DNA of 64,000 nt from a virus, in IMG/VR virus record IMGVR_UViG_3300008108_000191, positions 32,838 to 96,837 of that record; one strand, 5' to 3'. Of the stretch, positions 2,575 through 33,300 are shown one piece after another. Positions within the stretch are counted from its first letter, which is position 1, and each line of letters begins with the position of its first letter. Below the pieces are notes generated by a model. It was given only the letters and a program-made list of their open reading frames with translations. It was not told where the DNA came from and searched no databases. The translations under genes and the position numbers were made by a program.

Positions 2575-4128
2575 TTATACTACACTAGAAAGGAACTTAT
2601 TTTTTATATTATTACTATTTACCCCAGCAACTATAATAACAGAACCACTATTTGTTTCTCCACCAACATATTCTGTTTGCTTTACAGTATTATTTAAAAT
2701 TAAAGTATTTGTTCTTGGTTGTGGTTTTGCATTTTGCAAAGCCATAGCAAGTTGAGATGAATAGTCTTTTTTAGATGAACCTACCCATTCACCAATTTTT
2801 GGAGACTTAGGATCTCCAGGAATTCCGGGAGCACCCTCTTTACTCGCATCAGGCATAGCAGTATTTCGTTTTGGGGGGCTTTTTGGTGGTGGTGCTTGTG
2901 GTTGTGGTTTTGGTAGGTTAAGTGATGCTGGACCACTAAGCATCGGATCTTTGGATGGATCCACAAGGAACTGGTTATCTTGGTTTGTACCACGCCAGAC
3001 GGAACCAGGAATTATTCCATTAGCATCTGCCCGAATATTATTTCGTGGATCGCTATCACTATTAACTGCCCTAACTGTTGCTGGACTACCTCTAAACTCT
3101 AGAGCACCGCCAACAAATTTTGCTGCACTTGCTTGTCTTTTTGGATCGGATAGAAGACTAATAACTTTTAATAGAGTTGCCTGACTTTGACCAGACCATG
3201 CAGATGCTTGCCCTAAAGTACGTATTGATTTAAATGCTCCACTACCTCTAGTGTACACACCTTGAAACTGTCCGGGAGCACCAAGAACATCAGTATAGTT
3301 AGTACCATATCCAGGGTGTGCAACTCTATTAGCAACCACCTGCAGCATGTCGGCGTATCCCTGGTCACTACTACCTTCTGTGGTGAGTGCCGCAGCGATA
3401 CGATACATTTCAGCAGACTTTGGATCTGGAAGTTGTGCTGAACCTCCTCCAGGATCTACTCCACCACCTCCACCATCATCACTACCTCTATCAAATTCAT
3501 AATCCTCAATTCCAAGTAATTTCTTAACATCCTGCTTAAGTAAAAGTATTACAGAATTTATTGAATTATCCATTTGGACGAAGGAATCCTTCATTTGATT
3601 CATTCCTTTGTCTACTGCTACTCTTACAGCATTAAAATCAAATCTAACAAGACCAGAAGAAATTTCACCAACCATATCACCAAATCCTATCAAAAAGTTT
3701 TGAAGACCCTCTCTAAAATTATTGAGATATTGGAAATATGTCTTCATCCTCTCAATGAGAGCTTGAGCCATTTTAATGATATTTGGGAGATTGGTCAAAG
3801 CCCATCCAACTAGTAATGTTCCAAGAAAATCAAGTATTCTACCCAAGAAACCTCTTGTGCTATTTGCTACAGCACTAGTAGATCTTGATATTGCACCCTG
3901 AATTGATGATGCCTCTACAATATCCTCTCTTTCTTTTCTTCTTGTCGCTTCTCTTCTCTGATTAAATGCTTTTATACTCGCTGAAAAAGATTTTCTCTTA
4001 TTTGTTGTAGACTGTATAATTGTTGTTCTAACAGTTGCAGCAGATTCTCTTGTCCTAAGAAGACTTTTGTTAAGTCCAGATAAAGACTTATTAATGCTAG
4101 TTACATTTATGGAAGAACGATACGCCAT
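2575..4128 (-). CDS. Hub/tail protein with SleB-like cell-wall hydrolase domain
   Basis: The 517-residue protein has three parts. Residues 1-80 are basic, coiled-coil-like helix. About 90-215 hold hydrophobic and amphipathic helices beginning 'FLGRILDFLGTLLVGWALTN'. After a Gly-rich linker, about 240-370 form a SleB/cell-wall-hydrolase-type domain with 'RIAAALTTEGSS', 'MLQVVANRV', 'GQFQGVYTRG' and 'FRGSPATVRA'; the Glu in TTEG (near residue 252) is where SleB enzymes keep their catalytic Glu. A Pro/Lys-rich tail follows. It sits between hub genes and shares helical architecture with the next protein upstream. Inference: a virion-borne muralytic hub component that compensates for the lysozyme missing in gp5. 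Confidence 0.75.
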   Translation of the reverse strand: MAYRSSINVTSINKSLSGLNKSLLRTRESAATVRTTIIQSTTNKRKSFSASIKAFNQRREATRRKEREDIVEASSIQGAISRSTSAVANSTRGFLGRILDFLGTLLVGWALTNLPNIIKMAQALIERMKTYFQYLNNFREGLQNFLIGFGDMVGEISSGLVRFDFNAVRVAVDKGMNQMKDSFVQMDNSINSVILLLKQDVKKLLGIEDYEFDRGSDDGGGGGVDPGGGSAQLPDPKSAEMYRIAAALTTEGSSDQGYADMLQVVANRVAHPGYGTNYTDVLGAPGQFQGVYTRGSGAFKSIRTLGQASAWSGQSQATLLKVISLLSDPKRQASAAKFVGGALEFRGSPATVRAVNSDSDPRNNIRADANGIIPGSVWRGTNQDNQFLVDPSKDPMLSGPASLNLPKPQPQAPPPKSPPKRNTAMPDASKEGAPGIPGDPKSPKIGEWVGSSKKDYSSQLAMALQNAKPQPRTNTLILNNTVKQTEYVGGETNSGSVIIVAGVNSNNIKNKFLSSVV

Positions 4129-4133
4129 TTAAC

Positions 4134-5546
4134 TTATGCCCATCCAGTATTAAAGTAACGATACGAAGTATACTTGTGAAAATTATCTGGATCTGAAGTA
4201 GCAATGCTAGGCAGATAGTTAGCAGAACCTAGATCTTGTGTTGGTACATTTCTTGCACTAGCAGTAGATTCATTATTAATTACTGTTACATTACCTCCAG
4301 AGTCTGAACTTTTTAATGACTGGAGATTATCATTAGATTTTTTTGGTGGTGCATTTATTTCTGGAGATGGTGTTTTAAATAATGGTCCTTGTCCAGTAAA
4401 CGCATCTAGTAAATTAATCTCTGTATTCAAGAATGGATTATCTTTACCAATATCGCTTCCCTTATAAAATTCCTTACCAAGACCAATCAATGCTGGAATA
4501 GCAAATGTTCCAGCTATTGTTAACGGTATTGTGAATTTTGGACCTAGAACATAGTTTAATGCTGATAGAGCACCGCCAGCAGCAAAACCTGTACCAGAAC
4601 CAGCGATCATTTCACCAACAGATGATCCAAAAAGCGTATCGTATATTGCAGACGCACCTGCAGCGAATAAACCACCTTTAAGTACTGATGAACCAAAAGG
4701 ACTTCCTTTAGAACCAGATGAAGCAGGTGGAGCTCCACTAGATCCTGCTTTACCTCCAGGTGAAGTTTTTGCTGGTGGTGCTGATGGTTTTGGTTTTGTT
4801 GGAGTTGGTTTTGTTTTTGGTTTTAAACCTATTCCTGCCGCTATACCTGCAGCAGCAGTTTTAACTAAATTGAGTAGTGCAGCAACAGGTCTAATTAATA
4901 AGTTTCTAAAAATAGAACTACCCAACTTAGAAGTAAGTCTGGTAAGATAACCAAGTATAGTTCTAAATCCACCACTAAACAATAAGAAAATACCAGTTAC
5001 AACACCAATATTCTTCAAGAACTTTTGCTTAAGTTCTTCTAGTCTTTCTTTATCACCAGATATCAAGGCACTAATAGTTGATAGCGCCATATTTCCTAGG
5101 AAACCACCTAGGAGAATCATAAAGAAGCTTGATAATCTACCTAGAGTAAATCTTGCTTTATCGCCAACTTTTTTAATCGGAGTCAAAAGAGCAGACTGCA
5201 TTTTGCGTTCAACGACGCTTTCTTTACCTTCTCTGATTTTCTGCTCTGCTAAGATTTCTTCCTGTCTTATCTTCTGAGATTCTCTTGCCTGATCTAATGC
5301 AGAATCTTCTCTTACTCTTTCAGCAATACCATTCAGAGAAGCACTTAGAGCACTAACTTGATTACTAAGATTTATAAGGGAAGAATTAATATTATCAAAA
5401 GCAAGTCTATTCTGCTGCAGCGCAAGCGTAGTTCCATAATCTTCCCTTGGCTGTTGGTCTTGGGGACGATTCAGAAACGAAAAAGAGGATACTCTAGTTC
5501 TTCTTACTCTTAAACCAGTTGTGATTGGCGATGAAAACTCAGCCAT
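4134..5546 (-). CDS. Hub/tape-measure-like structural protein
   Basis: I do not recognise a named family for this 470-residue protein. Residues about 30-130 are strongly coiled-coil (Gln/Glu/Arg/Ala-rich). About 130-245 contain several hydrophobic stretches ('FFMILLGGFLGNMALSTIS', 'GVVTGIFLLFSGG'), then a Pro/Lys/Ser linker, then another Gly/Ala-rich hydrophobic region (about 290-370). The segment around 'FTLGRLSSFFMILLGGFLG' resembles the helix region of the next gene, suggesting the two arose by duplication. It directly follows gp26 and the 60-residue frame, the place where lambda-type operons carry the tape measure after the tail chaperones. Tape-measure or gp29-like hub is therefore a position-based inference. 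Confidence 0.7.
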   Translation of the reverse strand: MAEFSSPITTGLRVRRTRVSSFSFLNRPQDQQPREDYGTTLALQQNRLAFDNINSSLINLSNQVSALSASLNGIAERVREDSALDQARESQKIRQEEILAEQKIREGKESVVERKMQSALLTPIKKVGDKARFTLGRLSSFFMILLGGFLGNMALSTISALISGDKERLEELKQKFLKNIGVVTGIFLLFSGGFRTILGYLTRLTSKLGSSIFRNLLIRPVAALLNLVKTAAAGIAAGIGLKPKTKPTPTKPKPSAPPAKTSPGGKAGSSGAPPASSGSKGSPFGSSVLKGGLFAAGASAIYDTLFGSSVGEMIAGSGTGFAAGGALSALNYVLGPKFTIPLTIAGTFAIPALIGLGKEFYKGSDIGKDNPFLNTEINLLDAFTGQGPLFKTPSPEINAPPKKSNDNLQSLKSSDSGGNVTVINNESTASARNVPTQDLGSANYLPSIATSDPDNFHKYTSYRYFNTGWA

Positions 5547-5721
5547 TTAGTTCAGATTGCTGTTGTTTTAAATTTTCTTCCTCAATATATTGTTTTAGGA
5601 AAGTGAGATAAACTTCTCTTTCCCAAGGTATCATATTCTCTAGTTCAGTCAATGAGTATTTATGATGCTGCATCAAGGCAAAATTTATCTTGTAGTATGA
5701 CTCAAGATCTTCATGAGCCAT
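5539..5721 (-). CDS. 60-residue frame after gp26, probable frameshift-expressed chaperone extension
   Basis: The frame reads MAHEDLESYYKIN and ends shortly after 'WEREVYLTFLKQYIEEE', a short helical acidic/aromatic protein like the second half of tail-assembly-chaperone pairs. Its ATG lies 3 nt after the gp26 stop and has no convincing Shine-Dalgarno sequence. Its reading frame is exactly -1 relative to gp26 and stays open back through the slippery heptamer at 5736-5730. Expression as a fusion to gp26 (about 300 residues in total) is therefore at least as likely as independent initiation. It overlaps the next gene's start by 8 nt. Confidence 0.7.
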   Translation of the reverse strand: MAHEDLESYYKINFALMQHHKYSLTELENMIPWEREVYLTFLKQYIEEENLKQQQSELNG

Positions 5722-5723
5722 AC

Positions 5724-6440
5724 TTACCCGAAAAAAGCATTTAATCCCTCCAGAACAATTTCATTTTCAACCTTTGTATTTGGATTCATCACCGTAACAG
5801 TATGAGACAATTTTGGCATTGTCTCAAAGAATGTTTCAATCTCTTTGAATTGTTTTGAACTCAACTGCTCAAGAAATTCTCTAAGTTCTTTCTTAGAACA
5901 GTCCGATGCTGACCAAGACTCTTCCTCAGAATAGACTTGCTCAATGCAGGAAGAGATTAGATCAAAAGTATTATCTAAGTTTAGCTCTTCGGTGCTGAAA
6001 TTATTTTTCACAAATTCTTCCATAGATGGATACTTCATCCTCAGAATAAGATCATTATCAAGTTTGATATCTCTATTATGGTTCTTTCCAGTCTCAACTT
6101 TGATATCATCTAAGTTGATTGTTACGGGAACTTGGGTAGTTCCATCATCTGGACATGTTACAATAACTTCCACTTCTTCGCCAACAGATTTACCTCTGAT
6201 GTTCAAAAAGATATATTCAATATCAAATGTAGACAGTTGTTCGATTTTAATTCCTCTGCTTAGGATACAGTTAGAAATAACTTCCTTAACAGCATTTGTG
6301 ATTTGCTTATCATCTTCGCTTTCCATTGCGATGATAAGAATCTTTTCTTCTCTTACAAGAAAAGGGCGATATCTAATTTTCTTTCCATTAGAAGGAAGTT
6401 CCAACTCATAGGTTGGTGTAGATATTTTTGGTAAAGGCAT
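5724..6440 (-). CDS. gp26: Baseplate hub assembly protein gp26 (tail chaperone-like)
   Basis: The 238-residue protein has the layout of the T4 gp26/gp51 baseplate-chaperone family: an N-terminal 'PTYELELPSNGKKIRYRPFLVREEKILIIAMES', given here only as family context, then 'VEVIVTCPDDG', then an acidic helical C-terminus. In T4, gp26 is needed for hub assembly and has been compared with tail-tape chaperones. A late promoter box (6474-6467) lies 27 nt upstream inside the end of the preceding gene. The last codons (GCT TTT TTC GGG TAA) contain a perfect -1 slippery heptamer, so two products are predicted: 238 residues, and a fusion of about 300. Confidence 0.78.
   Translation of the reverse strand: MPLPKISTPTYELELPSNGKKIRYRPFLVREEKILIIAMESEDDKQITNAVKEVISNCILSRGIKIEQLSTFDIEYIFLNIRGKSVGEEVEVIVTCPDDGTTQVPVTINLDDIKVETGKNHNRDIKLDNDLILRMKYPSMEEFVKNNFSTEELNLDNTFDLISSCIEQVYSEEESWSASDCSKKELREFLEQLSSKQFKEIETFFETMPKLSHTVTVMNPNTKVENEIVLEGLNAFFG
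5730..5751 (-). promoter_or_regulatory. Predicted programmed -1 frameshift site (gp26 to downstream frame)
   Basis: Read on the minus strand, GGAGGG (5751-5746) is followed after 9 nt by T-TTT-TTC (5736-5730), in register with the gp26 codons GCT TTT TTC. After a -1 slip, translation continues CGG GTA AGT ATG into the 60-residue frame without a stop. The heptamer type is canonical, and an SD-like stimulator about 10 nt upstream is known from dnaX. Frameshifted tail chaperones are well known in lambda-like phages (G/GT). Confidence 0.65.
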
Positions 6441-6466: not shown

Positions 6467-6474
6467 TATTTATC
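6467..6474 (-). promoter_or_regulatory. Late promoter box GATAAATA for gp26 operon
   Basis: GATAAATA on the minus strand, 27 nt before the gp26 ATG and overlapping the 3' end of the upstream gene. It matches the T4 late consensus TATAAATA at 7 of 8 bases and is identical to the boxes before psbA, psbD and a fibre gene here. Confidence 0.6.
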
Positions 6475-7270
6475 TAGGTCCATAGGGGCTATTGTAGACT
6501 TGTCCCTTGTTAAGTGCTTCAGCATAAGTCATACCTTCAGGAATAAATCTAACTCCACCAGCCTGAGCAGCACCAGCAGAAACTGGAACATATCTCTGTC
6601 CTTCATTACCAGTTGATTGATTTGAATTATCATTTTTCTTATTATCATCAGTTCCTCTGTGAATAGAGTAACTATCACTTCTACCACAAATATATCTGTC
6701 GTAACTAAAGCGTACTGATGCTTTTAATATCTCCGATGCATCATATTTCACTACTGTTGATGAAAGATCTCTTGGAAAAAGACCCCAGAAAGTATATTCT
6801 ATATCTTCTTTATAATCTCTATCAAACTTAATAATTTTTGTTTGGTTTGATTTATAATCTTCTGGATATTCCATCCTAAAATAATAATCATCAGATGCTT
6901 TTCTATGTGCGGATCCATTAGAAATGAAGTCCATCCAATGTTCTAAGAACTTCAGAGTTTTATACTCATTATCAACATAAAACTCAAGACCTATCTCAGT
7001 AAACAATCTTGTGTGAGCCATATTTTCAACGACTCCCATAAAGTTTCCCTTAATATTCGCAGTAGCAAGAGCACTTCCAGGTAACGAAGCAGAATAGCAC
7101 AGAAGTCCTGATGTCTCAGTAATAAACCTATAACCAACTCCACGGACATTCAAATGTTGTCTTAAAGGTAATGGTAGACCACCAAAAACAACCTGATAAT
7201 GTGAAGTTTGCGCTAGATTTGTTAGTGCTGGTTTAAAATCCGATATCCTTCTTGGTCTAGGTGCTGCCAC
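6470..7270 (-). CDS. gp54: Tail-tube-like baseplate protein, gp54-like
   Basis: The 266-residue protein starts with GTG (7270). The motif 'LLCYSASLPGSALATANIKG', followed by 'LEFYVDNEYKTLKFLEHWM', is characteristic of tail-tube-fold proteins of T4-like phages (gp19/gp54/gp48 family): 'lyfsAklPGs' then a strand and an aromatic helix. The C-terminal 60 residues are polar and probably flexible. It is divergently transcribed from gp4 across only 41 bp. By fold and by its place at the head of the hub operon it is best read as the gp54 tube initiator; a tube protein of another rank is possible. Confidence 0.55.
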   Translation of the reverse strand: MAAPRPRRISDFKPALTNLAQTSHYQVVFGGLPLPLRQHLNVRGVGYRFITETSGLLCYSASLPGSALATANIKGNFMGVVENMAHTRLFTEIGLEFYVDNEYKTLKFLEHWMDFISNGSAHRKASDDYYFRMEYPEDYKSNQTKIIKFDRDYKEDIEYTFWGLFPRDLSSTVVKYDASEILKASVRFSYDRYICGRSDSYSIHRGTDDNKKNDNSNQSTGNEGQRYVPVSAGAAQAGGVRFIPEGMTYAEALNKGQVYNSPYGPR

Positions 7271-30335: not shown

Positions 30336-33300
30336 TCACGAATTTTCCAATATATCCAATCTTGATTTTAATACATCAACTTCCTCTGATAATTCCTTCA
30401 CTGCATTTACAAGAACTGGAATCATATGATCTGATGTCAGTTTGAGATGCTCTGGATCATTTGAGTCTACAATAACAGGATTTTCTCCTTCTGCTTCAAG
30501 GACATTCTGGGCACTGAATCCATACCTACGCTTTCCTTCTATGTCCTTTAATTCATCAGTATCACGGTCCTTAAAGGCATATTCAATTGGAGTAATATTA
30601 TGAAGGAAACCTCTACCATGAGGAACAGGTCCAAAAATGCACTTGTCACGGCAATCAGAAACTGCTGTCCAAGCAACCTGGATAAGAGCACATGCATGAC
30701 TGTTGTTACCCATAATGATGTAATTGGATTCTGTTGTAACATTACAAAGTCCTGTAGAACCCGTTCCAGCATTTTGTCCGAAGAAAAGATTATTAGTTCC
30801 AGTGGTGTTGCAGTAACCAGCATTACGTCCAATAAAGGTGTTGTTGCATCCACTGGTGTTGCAGATACCAGTATAAGCTCCAATGAAGATGTTAAAGGTT
30901 CCACTGGTGTTGCGGAATCCAGCACATTGTCCAATGAAGTTGTTAAAGGCTCCAGTGGTGTTGCATTGACCGGCACTAAATCCAATAAAGTTGTTATTGG
31001 ATCCAGTGGTGTTGCTGAAACCAGCACATCGTCCAGCAAAGAAGTTAAAGGATCCACCGGTGTTGCAGTAACCAGCACTAAATCCAATAAAGTTGTTATT
31101 GGATCCAGTGGTGTTGCCGAAACCAGCATAAGCTCCAATGAAGGTGTTATTGGATCCAGTGGTGTTGTTGGATCCAGCAAGTCGTCCAATGAAGTTGTTG
31201 CAGGTTCCAATGGTGTTGGATTGACCAGCATTAGATCCAAAGAAGTTGTTGTTGGCTCCACTGGTGTTGCATCGACCAGCAAATCGTCCAAAGAAGTTGT
31301 TGTAGGATCCACTGGTGTTGCTGAAACCAGCACATTGTCCAGCAAAGAAGTTATGAGTTCCACTGGTGTTGCATCGACCAGCATTAGATCCAAAGAAGTT
31401 GTTGTTGGCTCCACCGATGTTGGATTGACCAGTATAAGCTCCAATGAAGTTGTTATTGGATCCAGTGGTGTTGCTGAAACCAGCACATCGTCCAATGAAG
31501 TTGTTGCAGGTTCCAGTGGTGTTGCTATAACCAGCACTAAATCCAATGAAGTTGTTGTTAGTTCCAGTGCTGTTGTATCGACCAGCATAATTTCCAATGA
31601 AGTTGTTGTAGTTTCCAATGGTGTTGCGGAATCCAGCAAATCGTCCAAAGAAGTTGTTGTTAGTTCCAGTGCTGTTGCATCGACCAGCACATTGTCCAAT
31701 GAAGTTGTTGAAGGATCCAGTGGTGTTACAGGCACCAGCACCTTGTCCAATAAAGTTGTTATTGGATCCAGTGGTGTTACAGGCACCAGCACATTGTCCA
31801 GCAAAGAAGTTAAAGGATCCACTGGTGTTGGATTGACCAGCACAATAACCAGCAAAGAAATTATTGAGTCCAGTGCCACCAGTTCCTGCTTCTGAACTGT
31901 AAATGGTCCCACAAGAACCACTTAAAATGAATTCTCCACCGCCACCGACACCCCCTCCTGCAGGTCCTTGAGCACCTTGAGCACCAGTAGCACCAGCGGT
32001 TCCTTGAGCACCTTGAGCACCAGATCCAGTGGCACCTTGAGCACCTGTAGATCCTTGAGCACCTGTAGATCCTTGAGCACCTTGAGTACCTGTAGATCCT
32101 TGAGCACCTGTAGATCCTTGAGCACCTTGAGCACCTTGAGCACCTTGAGCACCAGATCCACTGCCACCCTCTCCTGCAGGTCCTTGAGCACCTTGAGCAC
32201 CAGTAGCACCTGTAGATCCTTGAGCACCAGTAGCACCTGTAGATCCTTGAGCACCAGATCCAGTGGCACCTTGAGCACCTGTAGATCCTTGAGCACCAGT
32301 AGCACCTGTAGATCCTTGAGCACCAGATCCAGTGGCACCTTGAGCACCTGTAGATCCTTGAGCACCTGTAGATCCTTGAGCACCTTGAGCACCTGTAGAT
32401 CCTTGTGCTCCTACTAAACCTTGAGCACCAGTAGCACCTTGAGCACCTTGAGCACCAGATCCACTGCCACCCTCTCCTGCAGGTCCTTGAGCACCTTGAG
32501 CACCTTCAGCACCAGCGGTTCCTTGAGCACCTTGAGCACCAGATCCAGTGGCACCTTGAGCACCTGTAGATCCTTGAGCACCTTGAGTACCTGTAGATCC
32601 TTGAGCACCTATAGATCCTTGAGCACCTGTAGATCCCTGAGCACCTTGAGCACCAGATCCAGTGGCACCTTGAGCACCTGTAGATCCTTGAGCACCTTGA
32701 GCACCTTCAGCACCAGCGGTTCCTTGAGCACCTTGAGCACCAGATCCAGTGGCACCTTGAGCACCTATAGATCCTTGAGCACCTGTAGATCCCTGAGCAC
32801 CTTGAGCACCAGATCCAGTGGCACCTTGAGCACCTTGAGCACCTTCAGCACCAGCGGTTCCTTGAGCACCTTGAGCACCTGTAGATCCTTGAGCACCTAC
32901 ATCACCTTTATCACCAGTCCTAGCAAAGGTGATGATAACGTCTTCACTATCACTGAATGAAGAAGCACTACCAGATACATATCCACAACTGACTGTGAAG
33001 TATCCAGTGTTCTCAGTCACACTAGAGATAGTGAACAGAGCAAAGTCGTCAGCATTCAGTCTATTAGAAATTCTAAAGTGACCCTTAATAGTAGAAGTAG
33101 AGTCATCAATAGTTCTTAAGAATGACTGAATATCTGTAGAGTTATCGTCAACATCATCAATGTATAGAACCGTAGCAGATGAAACTGTAGCGTTATTGAG
33201 CTTTAGTATTCCAGTTCCTGGGTCACTAGCAGTAATGTTTGTAGAGAAAGTATAGTCAAATGTAGCGCCACCGAAGTTACCATCAGCTCCTTGTGCTCCA

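Follow-up and report, generated by a model that had tools for sequence, protein, structure and literature searches.

The gene for gp26 and the short reading frame that follows it very probably form a single tail-assembly-chaperone gene, which would give rise to a short protein and, by a -1 ribosomal frameshift, to a long form of 300 amino acids. The locus lies in a stretch of 64,000 nucleotides from a T4-like cyanophage, hereafter called the window (positions 32,838 to 96,837 of IMG/VR record IMGVR_UViG_3300008108_000191). At the sequence level, a conserved signal, a fixed codon register, uninterrupted frames and domain homologies are all present. The features of the locus are collected in Table 1.

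Table 1. Features of the gp26-gp51 junction and of its neighbours, in window coordinates
Feature	Position	Strand	Remarks
Tail tube protein, upstream of gp26	6470..7270	-	PF23849 E 5e-17; phrog_45 E 4.6e-39
gp26, predicted short form (TAC-N), 238 aa	5724..6440	-	PF12322 E 4.3e-76; phrog_150 E 3.9e-83
SD-like GGAGGG	5746..5751	-	ends 9 nt 5' of the heptamer
Slippery heptamer T TTT TTC	5730..5736	-	read in the sequence; kept across relatives
-1 frame, predicted C-terminal tail of the long form (TAC-C, gp51)	5539..5729	-	phrog_634 E 4.1e-27; open from the heptamer
gp26 stop TAA	5724..5726	-	between heptamer and stem
Stem-loop	5694..5724	-	5' arm 5724-5714, loop 5713-5705, 3' arm 5704-5694
ATG of the gp51 frame, annotated-style start	5721-5719	-	inside the stem
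470-aa protein, downstream; candidate tape measure from position alone	4134..5546	-	no convincing family match

On the minus strand, gp26 ends with CTG GAG GGA TTA AAT GCT TTT TTC GGG TAA. An initial annotation of the window had pointed to a heptamer in slippery register at this end, to a GGAGGG element 9 nt upstream and to a -1 frame that stays open through a 60-residue frame whose ATG has no close Shine-Dalgarno sequence, and each of these was found in place. A -1 step would yield ...AFF-RVSMAHEDLESYYK..., open down to position 5539, and the fusion would count 237 + 63 = 300 aa, in agreement with the length of about 300 residues proposed at that time. Two features go beyond the initial annotation, namely a stem-loop of 10-11 bp after the heptamer and the identity of the 60-codon frame, which is gp51, the 'baseplate hub assembly catalyst' (residues 1-57 align with positions 60-116 of the phrog_634 profile). 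Membership of gp26 in its family is clear, with a PF12322 match over the whole protein (255.9 bits, cut-off 24.5), and PF12322 was matched only once in the record of 96,837 bases, which may be incomplete. The gp51 frame of the window also matches columns 239-278 of phrog_150, which indicates that this gp26 profile includes proteins with both parts.

Searches of phage records returned 710 matches for gp26 (E <= 1e-3) and 662 for gp51 (E <= 1). Relatives were gathered from IMG/VR contigs in scans that kept the best 80 of 589, the best 80 of 596 and the best 80 of 280 matches, and in two further scans that contributed 2 and 11 loci. The resulting set of 271 junctions, all with a readable gp26 end, consists of the window and 270 loci, including 18 from named phages; two additional scans, which gave 6 and 18 loci, stand apart from it, and two T4-type loci that were examined apart (L092 and L100) and one in which gp26 runs off the contig (L198) were excluded. 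As the 271 rows contain near-copies, counts are also given for 216 distinct junctions, and since the loci are related these counts do not represent independent events.

A run of the form TTTTTT[CATG] in slippery register, within 30 nt of the gp26 stop, occurs at 269 of the 271 readable junctions, window included; it is absent in Vibrio D504 (L091) and Salmonella UTK0005 (L099). The T run begins at a third codon position in every distinct junction (216/216), and T6 runs in that register are rare elsewhere in these gp26 genes (12 in 49,634 codons). All 216 place a T at the end of the codon that precedes Phe-Phe, whichever of Ser, Ala, Asp, Asn and Gly it encodes. For the first Phe, the same 216 use TTT, against 1560/2330 elsewhere in gp26. 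The stop codon that follows is variable (TAG in 117, TAA in 63 and TGA in 36). On these counts the in-register T run is more than chance, and the bias in codon and register exceeds what the gp26 protein needs.

A homopolymeric run could also act on RNA polymerase, and some mRNAs would then gain a T and give the fusion by normal translation. The T run itself, 6 T long at 198 of the 216 distinct junctions, 7 T at 2 and 8 T at 16, speaks for this reading; such slippage is, however, independent of codon register. Because the register of the run is fixed, and with an SD-like element and a stem that fit ribosomes, we regard this source of the fusion as extremely unlikely. Six Ts are also short for polymerase slippage.

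An SD-like core lies 8-10 nt 5' of the heptamer in 213 of the 216 distinct junctions, and the Glu of the EG motif in this region is coded by GAG in 156/205 cases, compared with 1748/5401 elsewhere. When pairing energies were set against synonymous shuffles, the gain was modest, with a median z of -0.80 and z < -1 in 98/216.

The gp51 profile, searched in all three frames, matched the -1 frame in 269 of the 271 loci examined; no frame was matched in D504 and in a contig that ends 25 nt past the stop. In all 268 loci having both heptamer and gp51, no stop codon interrupts the -1 frame on the way from one to the other. Together with the aligned heptamer and SD-like core, this supports the programmed -1 frameshift that the initial annotation had predicted from the window. 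The outcomes in relatives that the annotation had named as refuting it, a heptamer or -1 register that is not conserved or a separate gene with its own ribosome binding site, did not come to light. An ATG does follow the gp26 stop in many relatives, window included, and a second, free gp51 may be made at such loci. Conversely, 55/268 loci (47/216 distinct junctions) have no ATG, GTG or TTG ahead of the gp51 core, so that with the usual starts gp51 would be reachable only from gp26. The latter include Syn33, ACG-2014b and Melnitz-3.

These starts bear on the reading of gp26 and gp51 as two ordinary genes, in which translation of gp51 would be coupled to termination of gp26 and would start at an ATG close behind its stop. 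The ATG lies 2 nt 3' of that stop in the window and its clade, stop and start overlap as TAATG in KVP40 and Vibrio 6E35-1b, and gp51 is annotated as a gene of its own in public records. A free-standing gene is nevertheless disfavoured by the 55 loci devoid of ATG, GTG and TTG starts (rarer ones such as ATT are outside this count). Moreover, coupling needs no in-register heptamer, yet one is kept almost throughout; the ATG is buried in the stem in the window's clade; and the two parts form a single protein in T4-type phages (see below). We therefore consider two coupled genes very unlikely, and a frameshift from gp26 into gp51 is retained as the preferred reading.

Public records treat the frame unevenly. 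The gp51 frame is not annotated in the ACG-2014d and ACG-2014b records examined, and in those of S-SM2 (L083, 3732-3905) and Syn33 (L084, 2262-2399) gp51 is started well 3' of the gp26 stop; with these starts, the tail that the -1 frame predicts would be incomplete.

Downstream of the heptamer, the window has a stem of 10-11 bp that starts 5-6 nt 3' of it and carries the gp51 ATG within its 5' arm, while the outer A-U pair (5724/5694) overlaps the gp26 stop codon. This stretch folds at z -4.13 relative to shuffles. In an alignment of 46 distinct sequences, all from the window's clade, 99.1% of the cells are paired, against 28-38% in slid controls, and RNAalifold recovers the same helix. Neither the paired cells nor the score was reached by any of 500 shuffles. 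Covariation is confined to one pair, in which both sides changed in 8 sequences, the other pairs being nearly invariant; the count of pairs with changes on both sides is no better than in shuffles (391/500 reach it).

Beyond this clade the structure is less regular. Short contigs were omitted, which left 210 of the 216 distinct junctions in the shuffle-fold test and 214 in the stem-length test. In the former, 131/210 loci fold better than synonymous shuffles (z < -2). In the latter, stems of at least 9 bp starting 4-7 nt 3' of the heptamer occur at 82/214 sites versus 35/1278 control windows, and 132/214 sites have no stem of 9 bp at all. The stem is thus missing or weak in many lineages: a different one is found in MA10 and its kin, and none stands out in Syn33 (z 0.2), ACG-2014b (z -0.7) or Melnitz-3 (z -1.0). 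Both stimulators, the upstream SD-like element and the downstream structure, are present in the window and its clade and are not universal in relatives.

T4-type phages offer a natural comparison, from a small sample of 7 loci (L277 and L279, pieces of one contig, are not among them). Their gp51 is a protein of about 250 aa (Moon, T4). In Moon gp51, residues 1-200 match PF12322 (E 1.1e-56), and the terminal part is recognised by the gp51 profile. A gp26-like domain and a gp51 tail are likewise seen in the alignment with T4-type gp51. In the T4 group, this architecture makes gene 51 the source of the long form and gene 26 that of the short form. Gene 26 of these phages keeps Phe-Phe, and in all 7 loci the in-register heptamer is absent and the -1 frame leads into the following gene instead of a gp51 tail. 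On one T4-type contig (L278, 2076-2121) the Phe-Phe of gene 26 is still written with six Ts, GAG TTT TTT AAA, off the slippery register. The record of Citrobacter phage Moon (L092, 2120-3758) annotates a joined gp27-gp28 'GT-like fusion protein'; judged by domain content, the long chaperone form in this phage would be gp51 instead.

A single PF12322 gene was found in 22 of 25 named genomes, and 19 of those 22 have the heptamer. The three with two such genes (T4, Moon and Klebsiella W15-2) lack the heptamer altogether (0/3). In a tree of 25 rows, T4-type gp26 and gp51 were grouped (99/97), as a gene duplication would predict, although the long T4-type gp51 branch means that long-branch attraction could have helped this grouping.

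The heptamer is fixed and the stem varies or vanishes between lineages, so that the chaperone genes of T4-like phages would form a series with swapped stimulators. We propose, tentatively and with somewhat more doubt than confidence, that the shift signal of the window's clade has three parts, namely the SD-like element, the T6C heptamer and a stem-loop that buries the gp51 ATG, and that the lineages represent a natural series in which one shift site has been served by exchanged stimulators and was lost after gene duplication in the T4 group. The stem-loop and the start-less gp51 frames may be new details; the literature matches listed, as far as their excerpts extend, make no mention of swapped stimulators or of the stem-loop.

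A distinct arrangement was noticed in Ackermannviridae and their relatives (L099, L280-L297 and L302). Here gp26 is directly followed by a gp51-like tail in the -1 frame in 20/20 loci, counted by eye with near-copies included. An X XXY YYZ heptamer is absent at the end of gp26 in this group, and the sequence ATTTTCAT[TC]TAAT is invariant. Three loci (L294-L296) have TAATG; an ATG is absent at this point from most of the others. The tail may be reached here by a non-canonical shift or from an unusual start.

In the mechanism that we propose for the window, most ribosomes would terminate at the gp26 stop and release the short form, TAC-N. The GGAGGG element and the stem-loop would hold up a fraction of them, and these would slip back by one base at the heptamer, whose T TTT TTC sequence would let both Phe tRNAs re-pair, and would read on into gp51 to produce the 300-aa long form, TAC-NC. 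Slippage itself, its rate and the partners of the two proteins are what we infer. If the two forms act as those of lambda G/GT do, the tape measure would be coated by the short form, and the long form would use its tail to recruit the tail tube protein.

A tail tube gene lies 5' of gp26, as the tail tube gene of lambda likewise precedes its chaperone gene, and the 470-aa gene lies after gp51. The latter was considered as a tape measure; it has no convincing family match. Between it and a phrog_350 tail protein, a 517-aa protein (window 2575-4128) matches the cell wall hydrolase family PF07486 at E 4.3e-4, below the curated cut-off.

Fold comparisons are suggestive. The gp26 model (mean pLDDT 88.1, built from 65 aligned sequences) gave as first PDB match in Foldseek 2ob9, the HK97 tail assembly chaperone (E 1.2, prob 0.75), with no PDB match at E <= 0.001. 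On re-alignment, 3fgx (Z 8.0), 2ob9 (Z 7.9) and 3klu (Z 7.2) came out ahead over approximately residues 1-95, the next row being at Z 5.0; 3fgx and 3klu are presumably relatives of phage chaperones. A sequence search of gp26 against solved structures returned nothing of weight (best E 0.22), and a search of NCBIfam found none above the curated cut-off. At these modest scores, gp26 may have an HK97-like chaperone fold. The lambda G/GT logic invoked in the initial annotation is carried by the upstream tail tube gene, by the long form of T4-type phages and, at modest scores, by the fold; the 470-aa gene after gp51 is a candidate tape measure from position alone.

As in lambda G/GT, the short and long forms would share an N-terminal domain, here known from sequence alone. 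The lambda slippery sequence is G GGA AAG, unlike T TTT TTC in the window, and gp26 is longer than lambda gpG. The signal of E. coli dnaX places an SD-like element, a heptamer and a stem-loop in the same order as here; its heptamer is A AAA AAG, and there the shift shortens the protein, whereas here it would extend it. The article by Vladimirov, Gautam and Davidson in Virology 566:9-15 (2022) reportedly describes frameshifting that is kept in several T4-like groups, T4 itself using genes 26 and 51. T4 gp26 belongs to the same family and T4 gp51 carries the same C-terminal tail; unlike in the window, genes 26 and 51 of T4 are two separate genes on opposite strands, with no heptamer.

The work of Vladimirov, Gautam and Davidson (2022) is cited in an excerpt of the Adele paper (PMC12846349) for -1 frameshift signals of the poly-T kind in the TAC-N genes of T4-like phages, and in one of the PRFect paper (PMC10885494) for the T4-like arrangement of one short gene and one longer fusion gene. 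As conveyed by these citing passages, the genes and the idea, a short TAC-N and a long TAC-NC, are the same as ours. The initial annotation knew of no description of such a shift for relatives of T4 gp26. Its mechanism stands, but its novelty does not, since the idea has been published for phages of the T4-like kind (Vladimirov et al., 2022, via the citing papers). A 2016 review, in the part available, describes G-T frameshifting as widely conserved 'except T4' (PMC5009743). There is also a likeness to both lambda G/GT and P2 E/E+E', in which a short protein and a -1 frameshifted long form are encoded beside tail tube and large tail genes. Sections of a T4 review (PMC3004832) list gp26 and gp51 as hub assembly chaperones and report that the particle lacks gp51; for gp26 they note genetic support for a place in the hub, in contrast to lambda gpG, and this speaks against the reading preferred here.

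A frameshifted long form would fit the account that the available sections of that review give of T4 gp51, an essential protein that is not part of the particle. For cyanophage genomes, it would mean that the gp51 tail has been overlooked or begun at a doubtful codon in some records. The family would also present an evolutionary contrast, with a frameshift site in most sampled relatives versus a T4 group that has two genes and lacks a slippery site, and T4-type cyanophages would be placed on the same tail-building logic as lambda.
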